Assembly: GCF_921293095.1 (NCBI RefSeq)
Contig: NC_060254.1
Location: forward strand, 57,644,069-57,708,068
Length of the DNA stretch: 64,000 bases
Direction: 5' to 3'
Origin: Ischnura elegans
Lineage: Eukaryota > Arthropoda > Insecta > Odonata > Coenagrionidae
Part shown: one piece after another, positions 17,953 to 62,035 of the stretch
Layout: every line of letters starts with the position of its first letter
Numbering within the stretch: the first letter of the stretch is position 1
Notes under the pieces: model-generated
The model's input: the letters and a program-made list of their open reading frames with translations, nothing else
The model's database searches: none
What the model was told of the DNA's origin: nothing
Made by a program: the position numbers and the translations under genes

Positions 17953-17990
17953 CTGATGACGACAAACGAGTCTGTATTCGAAACGTTATG
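17953..17990 (+). ncRNA. Degenerate hammerhead-like motif (Penelope-type repeat)
   Basis: CTGATGA (17953-17959) is followed after 20 nt by GAAAC (17980-17984). The intervening helix is poorly paired. Core order and spacing match the better motifs at 57.2 kb and 31.0 kb. Probably an old terminal-repeat fragment, not active. Confidence 0.35.
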
Positions 17991-19389: not shown

Positions 19390-20431
19390 TTTTGTATTCC
19401 ATGGAATCAGTCGTTATAACATTTATTCGATTCCGAAGTAGGGGTAGTCAAAATGGCTGTTTTGTAGGCATCAACCGCTTCTTCAGACGTCTGGAAGAGC
19501 TTTCCTCGTATCATATTCATGATTCTGGGGATGTGAAAAAATCATTGGGGCTTAAGTCCGGGCTGTATTAAGGATGATCAAGAATTTAGACGTTTTTCTG
19601 TTCCAAAAACGACTTTATGACTCGAGCGGTGCGTGAGCTTCCATTGTCATGATGGAGCGTAATGCGTCAATTTGGGTTATCTTTCCGGAGCTCGGCGATC
19701 ACTGCAGGCAAGCAAATGGTCGTATAACATTGATCATTAACTTACCTTTGATTTTCTAGAGCAATCGTCGCTACATGTCCTGATTTGGCTACGAACGATG
19801 CGAGCATTTTCTTGGAAACGCTGCGAGAGCGAATAACTTTTGTCGGTTTGAGCTCACTTAGGAAGACCCATACTGAAGATTGGCGTTTTGATTCAGGCTC
19901 GTATCTGTAGATCCACGATTCATCACCACTTACGATGCTGTGGACATGCTTTGATGCTTCTGTGTTGACTCGTTGTAGGGTGTTTCGACACCATTTAACT
20001 CTAGCTGCTTTCTGTTCTTCTGTGAGGAGGTGCGGTATCGAGCGGGAAACCAATTTTTTAACACCTAACTCTTCTTGTAAGATCCTTTGAACTGAGGTCG
20101 CTGAGATATCCAATGATACCAGAATCACACGTTATGTAACATGACGATCTTCCATAATCATGTTACGTACAGCATTCACGTTTTTTTTAGTGACGGCGGT
20201 TTTTGGTAACCCTTCACGCAGTTCCTCACTGAGGCTAGAGCGTCCTCGCTGAAACTGTACATACCAGCGATAAGCGGTCGTCTTTGATGGTGCTTCTTCG
20301 CAAAAAACAACAAAAAACACAGTAAAGCATTCTTTCTGGGTGAGGCTTCGTCGAAAGTCATAGAAAATTATGGCGCGGTACTGTTCATGACTTGATTTCA
20401 TCTCGTACAGCGACTTGGGAAACGTTGACAC
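19390..20431 (-). pseudogene. mariner transposase pseudogene
   Basis: Cut-and-paste transposase of the mariner family, transcribed on the minus strand. The N-terminal helix-turn-helix half is visible (EQYRAIIFYDFRRSLTQKE, then APSKTTAYRWYVQFQRGRSS). The catalytic half follows, with all three acidic positions discernible: VSGDESWIY, LHHDNGSS, and YSPDLSPNDF, consistent with a D,D34D triad. At least two in-frame stops break it, one after EDRHVT and one after LENQR, with more damage toward the C-terminus. The length would suit the usual 340-350 residues, so it decayed by point changes rather than by large deletion. It is non-functional as it stands. Confidence 0.9.
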
Positions 20432-30938: not shown

Positions 30939-31189
30939 TTAACAAATGAAAAGAAAAACTGTGTATATTTCCACCAATTCATTCTCGCGGTACAACTAGT
31001 TTCGACGCAGCGGCGTCATTATCAGGTACAAGGGGTCTCGTAAATCTGCTTCTTTTGTCTCTGGTTTGGGATTTTTGAGAAAATGTACAAGAACCCTTGT
31101 ACATGATGATGACGCCGCTGCGTCGAAACTAGTTGTACATCGAGAATAAATTGGTGGATAAATACAATGTTTTACTTTTCATTTGTTAA
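30939..31189. mobile_element. Penelope-like terminal-repeat hairpin (snapback) 1
   Basis: Arms of about 96 bp, 30939-31034 and 31094-31189, surround a 59-bp loop. The inner 64 bp differ at five positions. Each arm carries a hammerhead-like layout: CTGATAAT (minus arm) or ATGATGAT (plus arm), a perfect 5-bp helix GACGC/GCGTC with loop CGCT, GAAAC, and palindromic ACTAGT. Both copies have a damaged CTGANGA box, so neither is expected to cleave well. Confidence 0.65.
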
Positions 31190-33369: not shown

Positions 33370-33850
33370 GAAAGTTAACAGCTGGTTTTTTTGGTGGTGT
33401 CCTCAAAAATAGGCCGCATTAGGTGGACAACAATTAGTTCAAAGTTTGTATCTGCATTATCATGGTGAAAAGTAAAAAACTTTGTAATTGGACATAAATT
33501 TATTTATGTACGACCTAGATTTTGACGTAGAATGTTATCATCTGGTATATTTGAATAGATGATGACAAGATGGTGACGTGCCACTTCGCAACCTAGGTGA
33601 TGCATAAATAAATTCATGTGGAACTACAAAGTTTTTTACTTTTCATTATGTTAATCCGATTCCATGAAGTTCCTGATGCAACAAATAATACTGCATTTTC
33701 ATGTTTTCACATCAAAATAAAATTAATATTACCGTATAATTCTAGCGAAAAGTACATGGAGTCTTTACTGGAAAATTGTCTATTTCAGAAATTCTCTTCA
33801 GAGATTAGGTGACGGCACGCGATATGCTTGAGATGTTCGATATCAACATT
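33370..33850. repeat. Diverged unit, copy 3, split by a hairpin
   Basis: Begins ggtggtgtcctcaaaaatag and ends gagatgttcgatatcaa, as at 31873. Between them lies the hairpin at 33461-33650, which is absent from the middle of copies 1 and 2, so it probably inserted into this unit. Confidence 0.55.
33461..33650. mobile_element. Penelope-like terminal-repeat hairpin 2, diverged
   Basis: Arms pair from gaaaagtaaaaaactttgta (left) to its complement (right end near 33650), with further pairing through aaatttatttatg and acctag. Degenerate cores: CAGATGAT on the minus arm and TAGATGAT on the plus arm. The GAAAC box is decayed in both. Inactive. Confidence 0.5.
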
Positions 33851-41790: not shown

Positions 41791-42014
41791 AAATTTTTTT
41801 GACACGACCCTATTTTCCCCGAAAGGTGTCCAAAGAAAATATTTTCCTGTCGAAATTAAGAACTGTGCAGCACTTATCCTAGTCTTAATCAGAAACGCAC
41901 TCAATTTTTTTGACACGGCCCTATTTTCCCCGAAAGGTGCCCAAAGAAAAGATTTTCCTGTCGAAATTAAGAACTGTGCAGCACTTATCCTCGCCTTAAT
42001 CAGAAACGCGCTCG
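41791..42014. repeat. 111-bp tandem duplication
   Basis: Two copies, period 111, marked by gacacgaccctattttcccc (41801) and gacacggccctattttcccc (41912), with only a few differences. 111 is a multiple of three, so frames on both strands (142 codons minus, 110 plus) stay open. The resulting repetitive peptide has no other support. Confidence 0.9.
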
Positions 42015-53806: not shown

Positions 53807-53935
53807 ATGACGCCTCGACAGCTTAACTGGCTAAAGCACTCGACCGGAAATCGGGGGATCCGGGTTCGAATCCCGGTCAAGGCGAATGATTTTTTCTCTG
53901 TGGATATTTCGCACCTCGAGCCATCGCGGAAAATG
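53807..53935 (+). repeat. tRNA-derived SINE, family C
   Basis: The head forms a near-complete cloverleaf: gcctcga/tcaaggc acceptor with one mismatch, D arm, anticodon stem ctcga/tcggg around loop ccggaaa, and a perfect T arm (ggttcgaatcc). Position 33 is C rather than U and aatgattttttctctgtgga follows directly, so it is a SINE head rather than a working tRNA. Confidence 0.7.
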
Positions 53936-56416: not shown

Positions 56417-57109
56417 TTCTTCCTGTGATTCTCACCAGGTTATATTATCCATAGAGAAGGACGGATCCAGAATTTTATTCGGATCCGGATTCGGATCGGA
56501 TCCTTGATTTTCGGAGCCGGATCTTTAGGATCGGATATTTTCGGATCCAAATGCATTTTCAAATTCCTGACGCTGAGATTCCCCCGATGATTGTTCAATC
56601 TCTTGGGAAGATTCACACTATGTGCCAGTCGTATTTTGATATTTTTATTTTCCACAGCTAAAATTCTCCTACTTACCCTCTGCGAGAGCTTTCATACAAA
56701 ACGGTTCATGAGCAGGACAAGAATAGCATGCGAAGGCGCATTCGAAGATAGAATCGGAACTCTTTCCACCCTGATGGGGCGTTCCATTCACTGAAGCTAT
56801 TATTCAAAATTTCGGATCCAGATCCGATGTCTTCCGCGACTTTGGATCCGATGTATCCGATGAAGGGCAATATCCGCGGATATTTGGATCCGAGGTATCC
56901 AATCCGACCATCCCTAATTATCCACATTAGCCAACCTTTTGAGCTCCTACTCGGGACTCATCCTCAGAGCTACTGTAGGTCGTTTAATTTGTTTATGGTT
57001 GCCGTTCATTGTTGTTGTTGTTGACATTCAGCAGCCCTGAGGATGAGCCTTGATTCGGAGCTCAAAACTTTGGCTGATGTGGATGATATAACCCGGTGGG
57101 AATCCCAAG
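56417..57109. mobile_element. Penelope-like terminal-repeat hairpin 5, split by a MITE
   Basis: The left arm is 56417-56451 plus 56917-56967, separated by the element at 56452-56916. The right arm is 57037-57109. Arms share ccacat.agccaa, tgagctcc and catcctcag. Core on each arm: CTGAGGAT, a stem, then tcaaaa in place of GAAAC. Probably inactive. Confidence 0.65.
56452..56916. mobile_element. hAT-like MITE with TAGGGATGGTCGGAT ends
   Basis: Left end TAGAGAAGGACGGATCC and right end ggtatccaatccgaccatccctA are inverted. The 8-bp duplication attatcca is perfect (56444-56451 and 56917-56924). Both halves are arrays of ggatccgat-like motifs on opposite strands. Non-coding. Confidence 0.9.
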
Positions 57110-57215
57110 AAGAGGTTACCCATCATTATTAGCTGTCTCCAAAATTGGCTTAGTTGCAGTAATTTCTTGAATGAAATAAAATAACTTTGTTTTATTCCAC
57201 ACTTTATTTTAAATA

Positions 57216-57256
57216 GCACGACCCGGGTTTCAACATCTAGTGTTATCATCAGGTAC
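57216..57256 (-). ncRNA. Hammerhead-ribozyme-like motif, all core boxes present
   Basis: On the minus strand, in order: GTAC (helix I), CTGATGA, T, helix II AACA/TGTT with loop CTAGA, GAAAC, a short palindromic helix III (ACCCGGGT), triplet GTC, then GTGC, which pairs with the opening GTAC through one G-U. This is the layout of minimal type I hammerheads described from Penelope-like elements, which self-cleave after GTC. One unpaired T between the CTGATGA box and helix II departs from the standard core. Cleavage is not shown. Confidence 0.6.
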
Positions 57257-57391
57257 AATTAGATGGGTGGCATGCTCTTAAATGGGTAATCGTGGGTAGA
57301 AGGGGGTGGGGGACCGAAAAGAGCCAAGAGCATGATTTTTTTTATGTGATATACATGAATTGATATGTAAGAGCATGCCACCCAACTTATT

Positions 57392-57432
57392 GTACCTGAC
57401 GATAACACTAGATGTTTAAACCTGGGTCGTGC
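57392..57432 (+). ncRNA. Hammerhead-like motif, partner copy, damaged
   Basis: GTAC, CTGACGA, T, AACA/TGTT helix with loop CTAGA, then TAAAC where GAAAC is required, ACCTGGGT, GTC, GTGC. Only the G-to-T change in the GAAA box breaks the core. Confidence 0.5.
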
Positions 57433-57482
57433 TATTTAAAATAAAGTGTGGAATAAAACAAAGTTATTTTATTTCATTCAAT

Positions 57483-58312
57483 AATGAAGCAATTCCACAA
57501 AATAACGCCTGAAACCGTGTTTTACAGTAATTTTTTCTTTATAGGTGTTGTCTACGAACAAGGCAAATTTGAGATTCTGAATAAATATTCATTTTCGCCC
57601 GAACCTTATCTTCATCATTGATGACATCTAGCCTTAAGATGAACTTCAGAGCTGCTATCTGCCGCTCATCAAACTCGTGTATTGTGTTGGGAATCGTACA
57701 TGAGTCGGGCGTGTCTTCTTGTATAAATCTCCGCCCAATCAATTTTAGGGAATGGATTTTTTATTCCCGCGAGTGTGTAATTTGGGAGGAAGCAGGAACG
57801 TGATACCTTTATGAGGGCATTGACGCATGGGTGCGGTTTTTCAAGGGCAATGTAACCGCATTTAAGGACCTTATAAGCCTTAATTTCAGCTCGCTGCGAA
57901 TGGTAATGTGATCGATCATCCCTCATCAAAATACGCACGTACCACATCCTGAAAGTCACCCTCGGTTACATGCATAAATTCCTTCGTTGCTACGAGCAGA
58001 CAGAGAGCTTTATATAGCTTTTATTCACATGGATTGGGTTGGAAGCCGGTTGTAGATTCGGAGGCTATGTGCTCCGTTTAATTATTTGAAAATTTCAGAA
58101 CAGAAATCTTTCACAGCGATAGAGAGGAAATCATTTTCCTACCTTACTATAATTCCATGTCTGAGAATAAATGTAATATAAAATAAATAATTAAAGATGA
58201 GGAATCCTATTTTCATCTAAGAATATAGAACTATAATAAATTCTAGCCAGTAAAAATGAACTTAACAACGAATACTTTACGTTTTTTAAATATAAGCATG
58301 TTAACAGCTCCA
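57483..58312. other. No supported gene
   Basis: Minus-strand frames at 57539-57742 and 57669-57959 overlap in different phases. The first (67 codons) is rich in charged residues but shows no domain or splice frame. Confidence 0.3.
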
Positions 58313-60049: not shown

Positions 60050-61030
60050 ACACTTATTTGCTCGATGGGCGGGGCAATATAGGTCTGAGGGCGCACTTCG
60101 TGTATTCATACTTCGGGACTGTGGTTGCTGCATAAACATATTTATCACGTATTTTGATTCTGTAGCGGAGAATAAAGAGATGAGGAAGACACATAGCGGG
60201 GTACCGAGATGATGTTCTCCGTACCGCTCGGTGAGACATTTATTTTTAAGTTCTCAAGCAATCTAAGCCTAAGACGAAGCCTCTGGCTCTCAAATCGCTG
60301 ATTTTATAGACAGAGGCTTCATAAATTTTTTGAAAACGTGAAAAAGAGTTTTTTGATTAAATACGCAGCTTTCCCTTGTGTTTTAAAAAGTGTACGAATT
60401 AAATCTTTTTGAGCCGGTTCACAAACGCTAGATGGACAGAAAAGATGTGGTGCAATGAATGCAAAATATCCGAAAATATTCCGAAAAAACACTCGATGAA
60501 TCTTTGCTTCTTCAGGACTCGGCCAAAAACCTTTCATTTAAGTGTTCCCCACGATAGGTTTGAAATTAGCGTAACTTCTAGGCATTTGACTTCATCTTAC
60601 GCCTATCTGTTAGTAGCATTACACAACATATCAATGGGGATAGTAGACGTTCTTTGCAAGAAATGTTCTGCCGTGCATGTGCTCAGATTGAGGTCTAGTC
60701 CTCACTCTTGACTCCACACGTGGACATTGTTTTGCTCCGATGATAGAATCTTAAAGTCAGATCGATCACTAATTTCGACAGCGTCATCGAAATTCAAACG
60801 TTTTTTGCTTATCAATCCGTAGCAGAGGTCATTTATGTTCGCAATGAACGAAAGGGGTCCGATTGCGCTTCCTTGTGGGACACCAGATGCGGCTTTAATT
60901 ACATCAGAGCTAATTTCGACGATATTTAAGCTGAGAAAGACGTTATGGTGTGTGAAGTATGTGCAATGGACTGAAAGCGGTGAAAAGCATGGCTCTATTA
61001 ATTCTACCCTCGAGTAGGTATCCCTCGTGA
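60050..61030 (-). pseudogene. Non-LTR reverse transcriptase, 3' part, decayed
   Basis: Minus-strand translation shows ASGVPQGSAIGPLSFIANIN then DLCYGL, the conserved SGVPQGS block of LINE reverse transcriptases. A damaged catalytic box follows (LNFDDAV where F-A-D-D is expected), then WSQE, stop, GLDLNLSTCT. Further on are fragments of the thumb and the tail (ESQRLRLRLRLLEN region near 60265) that the truncated copies elsewhere share. Stops and frameshifts are frequent. It links the tails at 605, 5626, 5991, 42684 and 45935 to a Jockey/CR1-like element. The full protein would be about 900 residues; roughly the last third is represented. Confidence 0.75.
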
Positions 61031-62035
61031 AAGGAGTTTGGCGCGGCGCGCGCGGGGTCTGGTCGAGAGAACTCATTCGTGGAATAGTGGCGCCCGCGTG
61101 GGTATAATGAGGCGCCGCGTCGAAAGTGAACGGCTTTCTGGATAAGTCTGGCGAGTGAACGGAAAATCCAAGCCTACTTCCGACTTCTTTTTCGGTTGAT
61201 GAGGATAAGAGACGTCTGAAAGGAAAAGGGGTTCACTAGCGGTCGAAGAAAGAATTCTCAGGTCTCATTAAGAGGCACCTTTGCGGCCTCAGTGCTTATA
61301 TTCGCGAGTGGATTCGAAGGAGAATTATTCGCCTATTGCTTCGCATGCTGCGGAAGGGATTTTCACCCACCCATTGGACGCTAAGCAAAAGTATACGATA
61401 AAGGAAAACGGAAATGGAAAGTCAAATTAGTACCACCGAGATTTCGAAGATAAATGGATTGAGTAAAAAGCAAATTATTACTAATTCTATCATGACTGAT
61501 CTTTTAATTCAATTGACTGTTATATTTAGTATTTAGTCAACAAATAACTTTAAAAGACTTACAACCTTTATTTGATAATTCATTCAAGTTCAAGTTTAGT
61601 GATTAGATCGAAAACTTCAGCGGTGAATTAATTTATTAAAATTCTCAAGCCCACAAAATGAAATAAGGTAGTTTGCGAAACGTTTGCATGGGGTTAATTT
61701 AATGAAATATAACGACCCCACTCCAAATTCACGAGCTGATAAACTAATTCCTCTAAAAAAATACAACGGTTGGAGGGGTATTGATGCGTCCACTTCAGGG
61801 CCTCAGTAAAATAGTCACATGTATACATATTATTAATTGCTTGTCAACGGAAATAACCATCCATCATCTTAATGAAATACATAATTTTAATGTTTCTATT
61901 GAACATGCCGGTAGCCACTAAAGACACAAAATTGACTATCTATTTTGCGCGCCATCTGGCGGGAAACACGGCAAACGCGGTAGATAATATGGCGGCCGCT
62001 CCGGTAATAGGCTTATAACAGATTCACGTTTATAT
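61031..62035. other. No gene recognised
   Basis: 61035-61140 is GC-rich (gcgcggcgcgcgcggggt); the remainder is AT-rich. No open frame with motifs. Confidence 0.35.

Follow-up and report, generated by a model that had tools for sequence, protein, structure and literature searches.

The 64,000-nucleotide stretch of DNA analysed here (the window) carries on its minus strand a minimal type I hammerhead motif, with the following parts as read from the sequence:

57215..57257, minus strand: minimal type I hammerhead motif (56.4 bits, E 6.9e-17; all 43 positions, 1-43, of the covariance model are matched)
57256-57253 with 57219-57216, minus strand: helix I, GTAC with GTGC
57246..57252, minus strand: core box CTGATGA (C3 to A9)
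57245, minus strand: additional T separating A9 from helix II
57232..57244, minus strand: helix II, AACA (57244-57241) with TGTT (57235-57232), loop CTAGA
57227..57231, minus strand: core box GAAAC, the GAA part being 57231-57229
57221..57228, minus strand: helix III, ACCCGGGT, self-complementary
57219..57220, minus strand: predicted cleavage site between C17 (57220) and G (57219), by analogy with known hammerheads

The conserved core of hammerhead ribozymes consists of CUGANGA, GAAA and UH, arranged at a three-way junction. By sequence and by covariance model this core is present in the window motif, in which the boxes, read from 57257 to 57215 on the minus strand, follow one another as GTAC-CTGATGA-T-AACA/TGTT-GAA-ACCCGGGT-C|GTGC. 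An earlier note on this DNA had named CTGATGA, a helix II, GAAAC, a palindromic helix III and GTC; all were located, and in the correct order. Helix I likewise closes as GTAC/GTGC across the putative cleavage site, at the coordinates listed above. The 5'-OH base, which had been put at 57220, needs to be moved by one position: the cut is predicted between 57220 and 57219, and the 5'-OH base would therefore be 57219.

The motif is far more abundant than expected by chance. The window contains two occurrences of the pattern CTGATGAN{5,25}GAAAC, where shuffles lead one to expect 0.19; 1 of 100 shuffles reached two. Across the genome searched (1.72 Gb, 110 contigs) it was found 12,428 + 12,402 times, as compared with 1,242 + 1,285 for the reversed pattern; with GTC added, the counts are 5,026 + 5,204 against 207 + 202 reversed (10,230 vs 409, or 25-fold). 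A pattern with GTG in place of GTC (2,191 + 2,289 vs 196 + 207) was rejected as a test of the H17 rule, because its gap allows GTG to lie within the downstream strand of helix I (GTCGTG).

At the gathering threshold, Rfam returned only a tRNA and no hammerhead from the window, and no hammerhead family was reported for 57000-57600 at E-values up to 10. The Rfam hammerhead models also matched 0 of 17 other motif-bearing loci and were judged uninformative for this class; a dedicated covariance model was therefore built. The motif sample derives from 100 listed occurrences of the GTC pattern, of which 96 were kept after four second parses were dropped; these comprise 64 distinct motifs. Every one of them lies within the first 19 Mb of contig C1, and each was taken with its flanks. 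Thirty-four of them have a helix II region of 14-15 nt. The model was trained on the 28 of these with at least three helix II pairs, all found elsewhere in the genome and without copies of the window family, and all 34 (the unselected set) were counted separately. It matches the window motif with an E-value of 6.9e-17 and a copy in the opposite arm of an inverted repeat with 37.6 bits (E 1.9e-10), and is only partly independent, because one of the families used for training is a sister family with the same downstream GTGCTATTTA. Four matches in the window score lower (19.7, 17.6, 13.2 and 10.2 bits) and probably reflect chance or decayed copies. Of the outcomes that the earlier note had listed against the motif, one did occur, the lack of an Rfam match, which is equally the result at the 17 other loci.

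In the unselected 34 motifs, 85.3% of the cells in the helices are paired and 75 cells are changed on both sides, compared with 23.6 in shuffles; the covariation score is 0.446, against 0.184 when shuffled and at most 0.147 when slid (the selected 28 motifs give 88.6% and 0.502). Four pairs of helix II show changes on both sides. Helix I is the weakest, with 66.2% of its cells paired. It has at least three pairs in 25/64 motifs, versus 1, 1 and 3 at shifts of one to three bases, and at least four pairs in 11/64, versus 8.3% (about 5/64) with swapped flanks, so that it is weak across families and exceeds its control only modestly. The covariance model and the covariation of the unselected set together support the identification as a hammerhead, with covariation present in the three helices.

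Helix II does not begin directly after A9, which departs from the standard hammerhead criterion. A helix II of at least four pairs starts after 1 nt in 38 of the 64 distinct motifs, after 0 nt in two, after 2 nt in one and after 3 nt in none; exchanging halves among the motifs, which are in part related to one another, still leaves 11% in the one-base register. Among the unselected 34 motifs, 94.9% of helix II cells are paired in the one-base register versus 21.3% in the canonical one. This value was preferred to a figure of 95.6% obtained by sliding the helix by +1, which was rejected because that slide pairs the extra base with G12 and omits the innermost pair. The extra base is T in 29, C in seven and A in two of the 38 motifs (a pyrimidine in 36/38), and T in 45/45 copies of the window family, a set that itself required 14-nt spacing. 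The same T is found elsewhere in the window, in a pair of motifs at 30989-31030 (minus) and 31098-31139 (plus) that reads T-GACGC...GCGTC. The dominance of the one-base register lends strong support to the proposal that the extra T is a feature of the lineage rather than decay.

Helix III is an exact palindrome in 43/64 distinct motifs, with six different sequences of 4, 6 or 8 nt: ACGT (13 motifs), ACCCGGGT (10), ACCGGT (8), ACCATGGT (6), ACGCGT (5) and ACCGCGGT (1). Since ACGT is palindromic by construction of the search pattern, the informative set is the 30/64 that are longer. Of the copies of the window family, 34/45 have ACCCGGGT as helix III, 5/45 have ACCGGT and 6/45 a near-palindrome; the exchange of ACCCGGGT and ACCGGT is, by its letters, a balanced change and was counted in favour of the dimer reading. 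Helix III of the window copy can form 2 bp and a 4-nt loop in cis, and an 8-bp duplex between two copies. An ACGT helix III has no loop and can therefore pair only with another copy; in the families represented by L115, L116 and L047, all with ACGT, a hairpin in cis is impossible.

Taken singly, the window RNA does not fold more stably than shuffled sequence (z 0.11), and its minimum has a structure other than a hammerhead; monomer folding was accordingly rejected as support for the hammerhead. A designed double hammerhead of the window copy has a computed energy of -18.9 kcal/mol; two monomer minima together come to -12.0, and the hammerhead form of the monomer to +0.9. The unconstrained dimer minimum of the same copy is a different fold at -21.4, which lies 2.5 kcal/mol below the double hammerhead. 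At L044, the double hammerhead is itself the minimum of the unconstrained dimer. Of the 34 motifs, only 11 have an unconstrained dimer minimum that includes the complete helix III duplex, seven of them with helix II as well. The dimer through ACCCGGGT that had been suggested thus finds backing in palindromes of varying sequence and length and, in part, in predicted folding energies. For these hammerheads in general, the energies computed for dimer action are mixed.

The same helices bear on an explanation in which conservation of the motif stems from its coding for the initial residues of the Penelope ORF, its resemblance to a hammerhead being secondary. ATG always lies inside CTGATGA, and Penelope pseudo-LTRs are described as containing the first ORF codons (parts of PMC3846280 and PMC11167929). 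Such coding would not account for helix II, in which the partners covary and four pairs are changed on both sides, nor for helix III, which varies among palindromes of 4, 6 and 8 nt and so shifts any frame that runs through it; we regard this explanation as very improbable.

The window motif is contained in an inverted repeat, the features of which are as follows:

57164..57283, minus strand: left arm, a pseudo-LTR piece read leftwards, without tail (from arm complementarity and 3' ends near +85 to +92)
57365..57521, plus strand: right arm, read rightwards, with a 'tail' of about 37 nt past the mirror of the left end (from complementarity and 3' ends)
57391..57433, plus strand: second hammerhead copy, in the opposite arm (37.6 bits, E 1.9e-10; C3 at 57396)
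57154..57168, no strand: probable left target-site duplication, TTGCAGTAATTTCTT (13/15 match to 57522-57536)
57522..57536, no strand: probable right target-site duplication, TTACAGTAATTTTTT (13/15 match to 57154-57168)

The 120-nt arms that pair with each other (57164-57283 and 57365-57484) are 94% complementary, and their 3' ends both point outwards. Homology of the left arm to its family extends on the minus strand to about 57320, many matches beginning at query position 161 (57320). The 13/15 match between the flanks was equalled by 7/3000 random zone pairs in the window. G12 is a catalytic base of the hammerhead core, and position 7 is free. The opposite-arm copy has C at position 7 and a G12 to U change (TAAAC) as its sole core lesion; with G12 lost, it is predicted to be inactive.

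The published anatomy of Penelope elements includes head-to-head inverted pseudo-LTRs, one of which may carry a 31-bp tail, and a duplication of 8-10 bp at the target site (part of PMC3846280). Judged by its sequence, the window insertion fits this anatomy, with a probable duplication of about 13-15 bp that is longer than the 8-10 bp of the rotifer elements (part of PMC3846280). Asymmetric tails of inverted pairs were considered as a novelty and dropped, a tail on one inverted pseudo-LTR being on record already (part of PMC3846280). The head-to-head arrangement is frequent: counted by eye among the 100 motif occurrences listed, at least 11 head-to-head pairs lie within 1 kb; all are minus-then-plus, and none is plus-then-minus. 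Fourteen loci, twelve of them around head-to-head pairs, were searched with the covariance model (L105-L107 and L113 were also tested with Rfam or served as examples). L115 and L116 are tight head-to-head pairs with matches about 20 bases apart, for which the model scores are weak (18.6 and 11.9 bits). Two further motifs in the window form the pair with the shared extra T mentioned above:

30989..31030, minus strand: hammerhead belonging to a second family of Penelope type, with ACTAGT as helix III and G8 changed to A (32.2 bits, E 1.4e-8)
31098..31139, plus strand: head-to-head partner of the second family, C3 changed to A (32.6 bits, E 9.4e-9)

Separately, decayed cores were seen at 17953-17984 on the plus strand (the other hit of the GAAAC pattern in the window; hammerhead-like CTGATGACGACAAACGAG..., then GTTATGG, with a poorly pairing helix II region) and at 33507-33549 on the minus strand (CAGATGA-TAACATT...TCTAGGTCGTAC; 10.2 bits, E 0.45).

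A DNA search for the window family gave at least 107 matches (40 of 765 candidates scored). When 37 copies were compared, most were found to end, on the 3' side, at about 85-92 nt after the core start, or at about 130 nt with the tail; their upstream reach is variable, up to 570 nt of the 600 nt examined, with the exception of one duplicated locus pair. Among 45 distinct copies, CTGATGA and GAAAC are both intact in 39, helix II is AACA/TGTT in 42 and the compensatory AATA/TATT in one, and position 17 is C in 44 and A in one. Helix I is GTAC/GTGC in 28, GTAC/GTAC in seven, GCAC/GTGC in three, GTGC/GTGC in one and GAAC/GTTC in one, with fewer than four pairs in five.

Longer copies connect the family to Penelope coding sequence. 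At Pfam cut-offs of 22.6 bits for GIY-YIG (PF01541) and 29.6 bits for RVT_1 (PF00078), ORFs for GIY-YIG, the C-terminal endonuclease of Penelope-like elements, lie upstream of the family hammerhead at L040 (26.7 bits), L120 (26.4 bits) and L119 (22.7 bits, barely past the cut-off). An ORF at L042 is similar to the GIY-YIG ORF of L040 and has no Pfam match. At L039, which is the same place as L117, an ORF resembles the Penelope RT thumb by eye, and L120 has an RT-like frame with YVDD, again by eye only; neither of these RT-like frames upstream of a hammerhead is scored as RT by Pfam. L118, a related copy that is 83% identical to the RT-thumb piece of L039, does pass the RVT_1 cut-off (34.2 vs 29.6 bits), and no hammerhead was detected in it. 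At L041, neither a GIY-YIG nor an RT-thumb-like ORF was found among the listed frames, and L127, from a more distant family, has a GIY-YIG score under the cut-off (20.0 bits). Called with at least three helix II pairs and at least two helix I pairs, a hammerhead is present in 7/12 loci from L117 to L128 (L117, L119, L120, L121, L122, L125 and L126) and in none of the other five (L118, L123, L124, L127 and L128). The GIY-YIG frames upstream of the hammerhead at L040, L119 and L120, together with RVT_1 in the related L118, uphold the placement of the motif in a Penelope terminal repeat. The Penelope-like features, namely pseudo-LTRs, head-to-head inversion, optional tail and a probable target-site duplication, are all present.

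These data also bear on whether the short inverted unit could be a non-autonomous DNA transposon (MITE) with a captured hammerhead. Inverted arms with short flanking repeats are what such a transposon would display. The arms nevertheless differ in their 3' ends, one with and one without the tail, 5' truncation points vary from copy to copy, and the longer copies continue on their upstream side into coding sequence for GIY-YIG and RT-like frames, which leaves this origin barely credible.

With the L039 piece as protein query, at least 150 matches were obtained (150 of 4,020 candidates scored). At least 10 of these 150 have stop-free open frames of 803-869 aa, on C2, C3, C4, C5, C7 and C9, and apparently intact Penelope elements are therefore present in the genome; all of the long frames belong to more distant families, at 43-48% identity. 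It is conceivable, if on balance unlikely, that the window motif is a relic, that is, a decayed copy of a source-element ribozyme which acts nowhere in the genome today. The partner copy has lost G12, both window copies of the second family have core lesions, and helices are broken in many sampled copies, as a relic would predict. The family as a whole speaks against general decay, with CTGATGA and GAAAC intact in 39/45 copies and C17 in 44/45, as do the long frames, albeit in distant families. Intact cores and long open frames together make active source elements plausible. For the single window copy, the relic explanation may well be right.

We conclude with considerable confidence that the window motif is a hammerhead ribozyme of a Penelope-like retroelement, situated in a dead, 5'-truncated, head-to-head double pseudo-LTR insertion, and propose that such motifs pair via helix III and cleave after GUC in transcripts of full-length elements. 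The boxes, the covarying helices, the extra U after A9, the palindromic helix III and the link to GIY-YIG and RT are all read from the genomic sequence. In full-length transcripts, two copies of the motif, residing either in a pair of direct pseudo-LTRs or in two separate RNAs, would pair via helix III and form a double hammerhead, probably aided by the element's own protein; cutting after GUC would then free a unit-length RNA. The head-to-head pair, in turn, could arise if the element protein cuts and extends both target strands and the two inserts are joined at their 5' ends. Cutting of both strands and a tail have been published for the Anolis Penelope element (part of PMC11167929). The window copy, opposite a defective antisense partner, is probably inert now.

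Dimer-acting Penelope hammerheads have already been published, and the kind is not new. Lunse, Weinberg and Breaker in 2017 and Cervera and de la Pena in 2014 reportedly described small, dimer-cleaving variants of the hammerhead in Penelope-like elements. Reviews describe Penelope hammerheads as minimal, abundant, located in pseudo-LTRs and possibly cutting as dimers (parts of PMC7761336 and PMC6466107), and their role has been called a mystery (part of PMC7761336). The motifs described here share with the published outline the type I topology, the reduced helix III, the pseudo-LTR location, the presence of thousands per animal genome and the proposed dimer action, and differ from it, as far as that partial outline goes, in that the sampled motifs as a rule have one additional base following A9.

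A close comparison is the Anolis Penelope hammerhead PAc, the one such hammerhead assayed, which was seen to cut only with the element's protein and the cleavage of which was dispensable for insertion in vitro (part of PMC11167929). PAc likewise lies in a pseudo-LTR by the ORF start, in an element with RT and GIY-YIG and an optional tail of 30-40 bp; it comes from another species and has another sequence, and its cleavage has been shown with protein (part of PMC11167929), whereas that of the present motif is predicted. A palindromic stem III/loop III was proposed to pair in a dimer for hammerheads of Aedes aegypti and others, the 2011 Aedes model having a 10-bp stem; in the part of that description considered here, there is neither a Penelope link nor an extra base after A9 (PMC3088659). 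Newt and axolotl retrozyme hammerheads resemble the present ones in their weak helix III, a palindromic loop (in one axolotl class) and better performance as dimers, but are tandem, non-LTR and equipped with loop-loop contacts, where those here reside in Penelope pseudo-LTRs (part of PMC7229834).

One unpaired base directly after A9 is also found in the plus-strand hammerhead of Chrysanthemum chlorotic mottle viroid, which is a single case with A, in contrast to the U or C that mostly occurs here in many retroelement families (part of PMC3705267). A hammerhead survey reports rare core insertions elsewhere, U10.1-U11.1 mismatches and three deviating viroid cores (part of PMC3088659). The literature passages searched, the scope of which excluded two primary papers (Lunse 2017 and Cervera 2014), contain no statement of a fixed extra base after A9 in Penelope hammerheads; given those exclusions, no priority is claimed for it. 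Among the features of these hammerheads, the fixed extra base has the least documentation.

The extra U of the window copy forms a U-G pair with G12 in the minimum predicted for the monomer. An extra pyrimidine paired with G12 would remove G12 from the core, and such a form should be inactive. As a tentative suggestion, which may be correct but for which we would not claim the better odds, these elements may represent a Penelope radiation with a distinct core variant, in which the extra base is obligatory (nearly always a pyrimidine) and the ribozyme acts only as a double hammerhead; the pyrimidine-G12 pair may hold the core inactive until two RNAs of the element come together on the protein, tying cleavage to dimerisation. 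About ten thousand motifs, in which the sampled families mostly share the extra base and a self-complementary helix III and differ in sequence, constitute a natural data set on the coupling of cleavage and dimerisation. The failure of Rfam at 17/17 loci means that such motifs escape standard annotation.

The window contains several other features. A tRNA-like gene lies at 53812-53884 on the plus strand (52.5 bits; a gene or the head of a SINE), and a transposase-like fragment at 19742-20131 on the minus strand (a weak PF01498 match, below the cut-off). The ORF at 60702-61232 on the minus strand contains VPQGSAIGPLSF, which is RT-like, and has no Pfam match. At 41792-42013, a 111-bp unit is present in two tandem copies with 94% matches.
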